A stretch of DNA of 42,996 nt from positions 1 to 42,996 of IMG/VR virus record IMGVR_UViG_3300045257_000093; one strand, 5' to 3'. Shown piece by piece: positions 24,532 to 28,042 of the stretch. A model generated the notes under the pieces. The model was given only the letters and a program-made list of their open reading frames with translations, did no database searches and had not been told where the DNA came from. This stretch comes from a virus. Every line of letters begins with the position of its first letter. Within the stretch, counting starts at the first letter, position 1. A program made the translations under genes and the position numbers.

Positions 24532-26034
24532 TCACTTCCGATACCGTCGCCCCCGCCAGCCGCCCTTGGCTTTGATTGGCCAATCGGCGGCCCAGGGCGG
24601 CATGGCGTTCATCTCGGCCTCGAACGCCTCGATCGACCCGAAACCCTTGGGCACCTCGGCGGCGTTCTCGTCGTAGACGTGCAGCACAACGGGATAGCCG
24701 GCGGCTGCGAGCCGGTGCTGGCCGTGGCGCAGGATGCGGTTGGCCGTCGCTTGGCAGGCATTCTCCAGCAGCTTGCCGCTGTACGTGGTCATCACGCACC
24801 AGCCATAGGCGCCCATCTTGGGGTTCGTGTTGTACCCCTCGTAACTGATCTGCAAGCCGCGCCAGTCGTCTTTGCCGGGCTGCAAGCGCGGCCGATGGTA
24901 GGGAATATAGCTGCCGTCTGGCAGGAACATGTAGAGCACGTCGTCATGCACGTACATCGTGAGCCCGGAGAACGTGCCGTCCAACCGCGTCACCGGGAAC
25001 TGCGTCTCGGGGTTCTGGACCGCCAGCACCGTCATCCCTTCGAGCCCATGCATGTGTGGCACGCCTTTCCACGGTGGCACGCCGTCGGCGCGCGCACGGC
25101 ACCACTCCCATTCCTCGCCCGCGTTGACCCGGCCGCCGACGGCTACCGCTGCTTGGTGCCACGCCGCCGTTGACTGCGGGCAACTCTGGCCGCCGCCGAG
25201 GAACACGATGTTTGGGCTCGCCGCGCGCCAGCGCAGGATCAGGTCGCGCGCCTCGGCTTCGTCGCCCTCGAAGCCCATTGCCTTGAGCGCCCCGATCCAG
25301 CCGAGGAAACCCAGCGCCAGCTCCGTTACCTTGCCTTTCTTGCGCAGCGGATGCTTCTGGCCCGTAGGCTCGGCCGGCTTCCAGGTCCACCATTCGGGCT
25401 GCGCCAACTCGGTGTCGGTGTAGCCCTCGTAGCGATGGAAGTCGTTGACGTCCAGTTTGAAAGTGGCGGCGGCCGACGCCTCGTAAATCTTGCCGTGCGC
25501 ACGGAACACGTCGATGCGCCACTGCTCGCCGGCCAGCATCGCGTTCACAACGGCCTCGATCGCCGAGTAGTCGCTGCAGATGAACTCGTGGTCCTCGTCG
25601 GTGCAGAGCAGCGAGCGCAGGCTACCGCCCATCACCGCCAGCGCATCGCCCCAGATGCTCTCGACGAAATCCAAGTCACGCGTGGCTATCGCCGCGAGCC
25701 CGTCCTCGGCCGCCGCGGCGTTCCATTCCTCGGCCTTGCTGAGCGGCCCGCGTAGCTGGAAGCACCACGGGCAGGCCACGCGCTCGGCGGGGTGCCAGCG
25801 GTGACACTCGGCGCACTGGCGCACCTCGGGGCCTGAGTTCGGGAAGTTCGTCGGCTGCGGCCCGCTACCCGTCGGCCGGCCGGTCCTCGCGCCGTCCACG
25901 GTAAATAGGTCGTGCACCCGGTTGGCGGCGGTCATCTGGCCGCGCAACGCGTAGACTTTCTTGACGCTGGCGCTCCCGACGGCTTGACGGATCTCCAAGG
26001 CGCGGAGGCAGGCGAGCATGTTGTCGCGGGTCAT
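24532..26034 (-). CDS. DNA polymerase family A, polymerase (C-terminal) subunit of a split gene
   Basis: A 500-aa catalytic part starts near the thumb/palm boundary (LEIRQAVGSASVKKVYAL). It has motif A ICSDYSAIE (D155, E160), a fingers helix KGKVTELALGFLGW (from K235), and motif C HVYDE (D455, E456). Motif C differs from the canonical VHDE: the His is Tyr. A four-Cys zinc ribbon (CAEC C74/C77, CPWC C88/C91) is set just after the TNFPNSGP region. The exonuclease is missing and is encoded separately upstream (26279-27229). Start ATG 26034 shares ATGA with the 83-aa gene between the two halves. Two subunits presumably reassemble into one replicative enzyme. Confidence 0.92.
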   Translation of the reverse strand: MTRDNMLACLRALEIRQAVGSASVKKVYALRGQMTAANRVHDLFTVDGARTGRPTGSGPQPTNFPNSGPEVRQCAECHRWHPAERVACPWCFQLRGPLSKAEEWNAAAAEDGLAAIATRDLDFVESIWGDALAVMGGSLRSLLCTDEDHEFICSDYSAIEAVVNAMLAGEQWRIDVFRAHGKIYEASAAATFKLDVNDFHRYEGYTDTELAQPEWWTWKPAEPTGQKHPLRKKGKVTELALGFLGWIGALKAMGFEGDEAEARDLILRWRAASPNIVFLGGGQSCPQSTAAWHQAAVAVGGRVNAGEEWEWCRARADGVPPWKGVPHMHGLEGMTVLAVQNPETQFPVTRLDGTFSGLTMYVHDDVLYMFLPDGSYIPYHRPRLQPGKDDWRGLQISYEGYNTNPKMGAYGWCVMTTYSGKLLENACQATANRILRHGQHRLAAAGYPVVLHVYDENAAEVPKGFGSIEAFEAEMNAMPPWAADWPIKAKGGWRGRRYRK

Positions 26035-26282
26035 TTCAGGAACCGCGGCAGGGGGCAGTAGTACTCGGGCGCACCATCGGCCTGCCAGCTGCCCTCGTTG
26101 AACCACACGCACTGGCCTTTCTTGTAGCTCCAACGAACTTTATCCGGCCCCAAGAACTTGTTGTTTCCCGAGGCGCGAAACGACCATACTTTCTCGCCGG
26201 GCCGAGCAAATCGTGAGTGGTACACAACGTACTCGCCGGGAGGCGGCGGGTTCTTCTCGTCCCACTTCTGCCAGTCATTCAT
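26031..26282 (-). CDS. 83-aa protein encoded between the two DNA polymerase halves
   Basis: The protein has many aromatic and charged residues (KWDEKNPPPPGEYVVYHSRF, KVWSFRASGNNKF, GQCVWFNEGSWQ). PPPPGEYVVYH.. and a late CVWFNEG pattern suggest a small beta barrel, of the kind found in short phage DUF proteins. It is coupled by ATGA overlaps on both sides: its ATG 26282 overlaps the stop of the exonuclease part and its stop overlaps the ATG of the polymerase part. I recognise no nuclease, intein or splicing motif. It could be a bridging subunit or a passenger (inference). Confidence 0.8.
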   Translation of the reverse strand: MNDWQKWDEKNPPPPGEYVVYHSRFARPGEKVWSFRASGNNKFLGPDKVRWSYKKGQCVWFNEGSWQADGAPEYYCPLPRFLK

Positions 26283-27229
26283 CCTAGTTTCTCCTTGAGT
26301 TCTTTGATGACGCCTTCGACGCTCTCCTGATCCAGCGAGTCAACGTAGCACCCTTTGCCGGCGAGCCACCCGACGAGCTTCTGCACCTCGCTGGCTTTCT
26401 TCACGCAGCCACCGGTGAGGATGGCCAGCTCGGCGTTGTAGCGTTCGAGCGCCTGCTCCAGCACCACGATGCAATTCTCGACGCCCGCGCGGTCCACCGG
26501 AATGCCGCGCTTGTTGATCGCCAGGTCGAGCAGCCAGTAGGCGCGGCGGTCGGCGGGCATGTCGGGCGTCGCGGCGCTCACTTCGTCTTCGGCCAGTACG
26601 TCGCGGGCGTTGTAGGCGTAGAGCCGCGGGCCGTCGGTCGGATCTTCCTCGGGCCGGATGCGCTTGCGCGGGTCTTTCTTCGTCGGCTTGCGCGGCACGC
26701 TGAAGCGATCGAGCAGGCGCTTACCCTCGGCGTCCTTCTGGTGCTCGATGCCCAACACCTCACCGACGTCGGCCAAGCTCGGCGGCAGCGACCACGCGCG
26801 CGCTTTGCCCATCGAGCAGTAGAGTTGCGTCGGGCGGATCGGCGGGAAGCCGTAGCGCGGCACCGCGACGTACTCCCAGACCCATAGCTCGAACTTGGCG
26901 CCGTGCGCCTCTATCTCGCCGCCGGCAGCAATGTGGGCACAGAAGTCCGCGGGCAACGGTTGGCCGGGCAGCCAGAGCCGATCGCCGAGCCCATCCTTCA
27001 GGTCGTAGACCATCGACAGGATCTCGGTCGTCGGGTGCTGCGCGTAGACGGCCGCCCCCACCGCCGGCAACCCGCCGCGGCCCTTCGCGTCCGTCGCGGT
27101 CTTGAGCCATTTGCCGTCGGCTTCCGACCACTCGAACCCCGCCTCGCTGTATGACTCCAGGTCGAACGATGCACGCACCGTTGAATGGCCGAGCCCGACG
27201 CGGAGCTTTGTGCCGGCGAGGTGGGTCAT
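26279..27229 (-). CDS. DNA polymerase family A, 3'-5' exonuclease (N-terminal) subunit of a split gene
   Basis: A 316-aa protein has the DEDD exonuclease fold: Exo I SFDLES (D23, E25), Exo II-like EAHGAKFEL (an unusual Gly and Glu in place of the common Asn/Asp), and Exo III YNARD. After about residue 210 it continues into the first part of the polymerase domain (YWLLDLAINKRGIPVDR, CVKKASEVQKLVGWL, and LDQESVEGVIKEL), where single-chain relatives go on into the polymerase. It ends at KEKLG and the chain resumes in the gene at 26034. Start ATG 27229 overlaps the previous stop. Confidence 0.9.
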   Translation of the reverse strand: MTHLAGTKLRVGLGHSTVRASFDLESYSEAGFEWSEADGKWLKTATDAKGRGGLPAVGAAVYAQHPTTEILSMVYDLKDGLGDRLWLPGQPLPADFCAHIAAGGEIEAHGAKFELWVWEYVAVPRYGFPPIRPTQLYCSMGKARAWSLPPSLADVGEVLGIEHQKDAEGKRLLDRFSVPRKPTKKDPRKRIRPEEDPTDGPRLYAYNARDVLAEDEVSAATPDMPADRRAYWLLDLAINKRGIPVDRAGVENCIVVLEQALERYNAELAILTGGCVKKASEVQKLVGWLAGKGCYVDSLDQESVEGVIKELKEKLG

Positions 27230-27688: not shown

Positions 27689-28042
27689 TCAATTCTCCAA
27701 GTCAGTGCGGTACACAAAGACCTTCAGGCCCATGCGTTCCGCGGTGGCGATCATATGGCGGGTGCCTGGGCTCTTTCCGTCCCAGATCGCGATGAGCGCA
27801 TCGGCGTAGACGGCCATCTCCATGTTGCGCTGGCGTCCCGCCGCGCGCCCGTAGCGCTTCCAGTCGGCGGGGAACTGACGGACGGGGAGCCCCGCCATCC
27901 GCGCCCACTGCTCGCCGAGTTGGTCGACGCCATCGGCGCACCCGCTGATAATCTCGGTCATCTCGAACTTCGTCGCGGTAACCGCGACGGCCAGAAGGCA
28001 GATGCGGGTAATCGCGCGGCTACCGGCGATGATCGTTTTCAT
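27689..28042 (-). CDS. SLOG-domain protein (YspA/DUF2493-like)
   Basis: A 117-aa Rossmann-like protein of the SLOG superfamily (YspA group). The nucleotide-binding features are AGSR near the N-terminus, ISGCADGVDQLGEQWA, the FPADWKRYGRAAGRQRN stretch, and IAIWDGKSPGTRHMI with the GT turn. SLOG proteins bind nucleotide-derived ligands and occur in stress and defence contexts. In phages the group is frequent but uncharacterised; sensing or removing an NAD-derived signal is a possibility (inference). ATG 28042 overlaps the stop of the broken upstream gene (ATGA). Confidence 0.85.
   Translation of the reverse strand: MKTIIAGSRAITRICLLAVAVTATKFEMTEIISGCADGVDQLGEQWARMAGLPVRQFPADWKRYGRAAGRQRNMEMAVYADALIAIWDGKSPGTRHMIATAERMGLKVFVYRTDLEN

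Follow-up and report, generated by a model that had tools for sequence, protein, structure and literature searches.

We analyzed the IMG/VR virus record IMGVR_UViG_3300045257_000093 over its full 42,996 bases (hereafter the window), in which a family A DNA polymerase is encoded by two genes, A and B, with an 83-codon gene between them (Table 1). Profile searches place both genes in phrog_17 (DNA polymerase), gene A over profile positions 674-910 (E 4.8e-23) and gene B over positions 949-1232 (E 4.8e-45); gene B additionally matches PF00476 with an E value of 1.1e-5, under the curated cut-off. Gene A holds the three DEDD-type exonuclease motifs: Exo I (D23/E25), Exo II (the FE of HGAKFE, where G takes the place of the usual N in this clade) and Exo III (Y206..D210). 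Gene B contributes the palm residues D155/E160 and D455/E456, and the palm/finger motifs A, B and C of a family A polymerase are all present. The layout of the locus, its ATGA overlaps and the intact motifs of both halves (D23/E25; D155, D455/E456) are as described in the original prediction.

Table 1. Features of the split polymerase locus in the window.
Feature	Position	Strand	Basis
Polymerase gene A: 3'-5' exonuclease domain and N-terminal part of thumb, 316 aa	26279..27229	-	ORF; phrog_17; single-chain alignment
Thumb segment within gene A, residues ~241-308	26306..26509	-	L021 model; corresponds to the thumb helices that precede the cut
83-codon gene in the split (83 aa), interpreted as cargo	26031..26282	-	ORF; GC
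Polymerase gene B: C-terminal part of thumb, zinc-ribbon-like insert, palm, fingers, 500 aa	24532..26034	-	ORF; PF00476; phrog_17
CxxC...CxxC zinc-ribbon-like insert, gene B residues 74-91	25762..25815	-	alignment with single-chain relatives
ATGA overlap, gene A stop / 83-codon gene start	26279..26282	-	sequence
ATGA overlap, 83-codon gene stop / gene B start	26031..26034	-	sequence

Because stop and start codons overlap at both junctions, the three genes are presumably expressed by translational coupling; no ribosome-binding sequence is evident upstream of gene B in the window. When the products of A and B were concatenated and aligned with single-chain phage family A polymerases, the match ran from end to end, with all core residues kept. 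Gene B begins, as had been claimed, with the segment that follows in single-chain relatives: its start, MTRDNMLACLRALEIRQ, aligns with LKRDDLTPPARRALEIRQ of the single-chain polymerase of phage AeroV_348.

Several further features of these polymerases were observed. In motif B of gene B (window 25306-25344; K235..L239, aligned by eye), Leu occupies the position of Klenow Phe762, a Leu762 type that has been discussed for viral PolA. The zinc-ribbon-like insert follows the NSGP motif and is common to relatives of this polymerase, with its four Cys invariant in the alignment with single-chain relatives; in one other split contig it is doubled (L005:7533-7667, a double zinc ribbon with a weak PF12773 match). 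HMO-2011-type polymerases carry a partial DnaJ domain between the exonuclease and polymerase domains (PMC6918029). Vibrio phage 97.13 encodes a YspA-like SLOG protein in a single open frame with the polymerase (L013:1771-5244); in the window, two ORFs separate the SLOG gene (27689-28042) from gene A.

To establish whether the split is real, we looked for it in other viral contigs. Both halves are encoded by separate genes in five other IMG/VR contigs, which represent three further genotypes (L001, L002 and L003 count as one, being 100% identical over 4 kb). The four split genotypes, the window included, come from different metagenome assemblies, are all uncultured, and share 77-97% protein identity, with dS values up to 0.7. 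Across them, dN/dS is 0.07-0.18 for gene A and 0.15-0.29 for gene B, indicating purifying selection on both halves. That the two genes might be a product of decay or of faulty assembly could be suspected as long as the window phage is known from a single contig, but the recurrence of the split in other assemblies, the selection on both halves and the intact catalytic motifs leave this explanation a negligible probability. Because four genotypes from different assemblies share the split, chance or assembly error can be ruled out, and the view that the arrangement is not decay holds. One polymerase is thus encoded by two separate, complementary genes, and is conserved in that form.

The distribution of the split is narrow. 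Among the best 80 IMG/VR relatives ranked by the polymerase half, it occurs only in contigs of this clade; another IMG/VR scan, made with more distant queries, gave no further split, with a full-length ranking that is biased against split loci. Since ranking by full-length match disfavours such loci, the census by polymerase half is the fairer of the two. A maximum-likelihood tree built from 89 polymerase halves groups the four split genotypes as a single clade (support 100/100) that lies nested among the single-chain lineages L021-L024. This placement makes a single origin of the split the simplest reading of the sequences.

The position of the cut was analyzed on L021, a single-chain relative, modelled with AlphaFold2 (pLDDT 89.8); the best PDB match of this model is the Klenow fragment (1d8y). 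The cut maps between two thumb helices, residues 342-361 and 385-398 of the model. Measured between the flanking landmarks in 86 single-chain relatives, the loop has a median length of 20 residues (quartiles 20-21), while in the four rows nearest to the split clade it measures 50 (L021), 33 (L022) and 57 residues (L023 and L024); the last two are near-copies, so that the enlarged loop counts for three lineages. Because the nearest single-chain lineages have enlarged loops, it is likely that the loop was enlarged before the chain was broken, with the reservation that shared ancestry makes these data points not fully independent.

The gap between the halves differs in length (0.2-0.9 kb) and content in every genotype. 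Where the window has the 83-codon gene, the other genotypes have a 159-aa Dam-like methyltransferase (L008; phrog_111, E 5.7e-37), a DNA methyltransferase of ~300 aa (L005; N6_N4_Mtase, E 7.5e-52) and a 69-aa phage protein of phrog_27185 (L009; E 1e-23), a family whose relatives adjoin the terminase gene in Xanthomonas phages. The four gap genes, compared across the genotypes, show no similarity to one another; they are complete, and their starts and stops overlap or abut. The flanking operon is common to the genotypes and comprises a DUF2800 nuclease, a gp2.5-like SSB, the SLOG protein and both polymerase halves, and other intergenic slots in it also vary in content.

The 83-aa protein of the window has no confident match in Pfam, PHROG, NCBIfam or PADLOC and no relatives in viral contigs; against phages the best hit is a Xanthomonas phage hypothetical protein at E 0.02, which is not confident. 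An assignment to DUF551 (PF04448) was rejected, with no match anywhere in the window at E 10. A single-sequence AlphaFold model of the protein reached a pLDDT of 46, too low to be informative. The gene has a GC content of 58.7%, against 67% in the polymerase halves, where every 252-bp window lies above the value of the gene (minimum 61.1%).

These results bear directly on the proposal that the 83-aa protein is a third subunit linking the two parts of the replicase. Its position between the halves and its ATGA overlaps with both would suit such a role, as would the presence of a gene in the gap of all four genotypes. It is nevertheless very unlikely: each genotype has a different, unrelated gene in the gap, in two of the four a recognisable DNA methyltransferase, the 83-aa protein is absent from every relative searched, and its gene is foreign in composition. 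The original prediction had named beforehand, as the finding that would speak against it, the same split with unrelated genes between the halves, and this is the arrangement in the three other genotypes, where a Dam-like methyltransferase, an N6/N4 methyltransferase and a 69-aa protein take the place of the supposed linker. The split itself recurs in five other contigs, and the 83-aa gene is not conserved there. Because unrelated genes occupy the same slot, the 83-aa protein is best explained as cargo rather than as a polymerase subunit, although a role specific to the window phage is conceivable. No genotype of the four has an empty gap, and because all four have a gene there, the presence of some gene may be needed.

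Two neighbouring observations concern the same region. The slot directly upstream of the exonuclease half in L009 (L009:5375-6004) holds another DNA methyltransferase (phrog_757), so methyltransferases recur around the locus. In L008 the exonuclease half has an extra Ala/Pro-rich tail (L008:6949-7020), which the other three genotypes lack; it ends in LPDFDYDNEIPF, which resembles the tip at the C terminus of bacterial SSB proteins. The tail may be what is left of a former gap gene, or a binding tip that was recruited. A more speculative and rather doubtful extension is that the split locus is maintained as a landing slot for interchangeable counter-defence genes, whose translation together with the replicase would link cargo expression to replication, and whose products might sometimes touch the replicase.

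As an indication of whether the two chains act as one enzyme, we compared selection along the split polymerase within the split clade. Omega is 0.097 for the part of the thumb that gene A carries (residues 241-305) and 0.022 for the part carried by gene B (concatenated residues 327-355), both rough values from short segments; it is higher in the exonuclease domain (0.124) and in the palm and fingers (0.21). The new ends created by the cut are loosely constrained, with values of 0.40 and 1.2, also rough and from short segments. Because selection preserves, on separate chains, two pieces of the same thumb that complement each other, a complex of A and B is the best explanation of this pattern, and their reassembly into one enzyme is likely. 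Alternatively, the product of gene A could act on its own as an exonuclease and that of gene B as a polymerase that lacks proofreading, the two staying apart; stand-alone exonuclease subunits are indeed annotated in other phages (phrog_403). We regard this as unlikely, given the strong constraint on the thumb segment of gene A, the complementary helix retained by gene B, and the lack of any evident use of half a thumb to a free exonuclease.

The halves might also be rejoined after transcription or translation, by an intron, an intein or ribosomal bypass, to give one mature chain. Precedents are at hand: related single-chain polymerases of MR14 (L014), SFCi1 (L016) and 97.13 (L013) carry long intein-like inserts in the polymerase part, elsewhere than at the cut and at differing sites, and an intron has been suggested for MEP401 (PMC10580990). 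But no Rfam intron family was found in the window, L005, L008 or L009, the cut is without intein-like ends, and the gap, different in length and content in every genotype, is occupied by whole genes whose starts and stops overlap or abut, making rejoining extremely improbable. Taken together, the alignment, dN/dS values, census, tree and thumb omega agree with the predicted two-gene, non-decayed polymerase, which probably works as two subunits.

We propose the following history, which we consider probable as a whole. The ancestor would have been a single-chain family A replicase in which the loop joining two thumb helices had already grown and tolerated differences in length. A cut in this loop would have produced gene A, with the exonuclease domain and the first thumb helices, and gene B, with the last thumb helices, the palm and the fingers. 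Co-translated from one operon, A and B most likely associate through their thumb helices to form an ordinary proofreading polymerase. The gap would then have turned into a normal space between genes, open to unrelated cargo such as methyltransferases and small orphan proteins, usually with stop/start overlaps. The stages are plausible: a loop that is short in most relatives, enlarged in the nearest ones, then a cut chain, then a gap with changing genes. The locus would illustrate how an essential single-chain enzyme becomes two subunits and how the break then serves as a cargo site, and it points to a site where a proofreading family A polymerase has been split in nature.

It is instructive to compare this locus with known systems. 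The single-chain polymerases of Shewanella phage SppYZU01, Stenotrophomonas phage B2 and Acinetobacter phage Scuro, and those of L021-L024, have the same domains, motifs and zinc-ribbon insert; unlike the split clade, they consist of one chain, with no gene at the thumb loop. The concatenated A and B are 42-49% identical to such polymerases of cultured phages (SppYZU01, B2, Scuro and others), and L021, the nearest IMG/VR relative, is 60% identical over the polymerase half.

Core phage enzymes in two pieces have been described before. In the T4-related phages 25 and 44RR, the family B polymerase gene 43 is split into gp43A and gp43B, and in phage 25 the two products, 43A and 43B, purify together and show polymerase activity (Petrov et al. 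2010, cited in PMC2988022). These replicases resemble that of the window in being encoded by two genes with intervening sequence; they differ in that they belong to family B and have a homing endonuclease or an untranslated spacer between the parts, whereas the window has a family A polymerase and no such endonuclease. Similarly, nrdA of Aeh1 is split by an inserted gene and is functional as two chains (PMC2988022), but it encodes a ribonucleotide reductase and the inserted gene is the homing endonuclease MobE. We rejected the assignment of the window locus to the genes split by homing endonucleases, as the gap genes include no endonuclease family; a homing endonuclease may conceivably have occupied the gap in the past. 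In a separate observation, the annotation of Vibrio phage VP16T (AY328852, L195) gives the polymerase C-terminus a small ORF of its own, orf37T; this could reflect a further split or a frameshift introduced by sequencing.

The sole direct precedent that we found in the literature on split family A phage polymerases is that of the Methylophilales phages MEP401 and MEP402, whose PolA is encoded by two ORFs with a small 77-aa gene of unknown function between them (PMC10580990). The likeness to the window is in this layout; the polymerases are only distantly related. In MEP401, gp13 ends at PF00476 position 132 and gp15 starts at position 154, placing the cut in the palm, whereas the cut in the window lies N-terminal of that, in the thumb. 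We therefore rejected a split of the MEP401 type for the window, and because of the palm position the MEP401 split is most likely an independent event. Split phage polymerases are thus already known; what sets this locus apart is the cut in the thumb loop, the history of that loop, and the turnover of genes in the gap.
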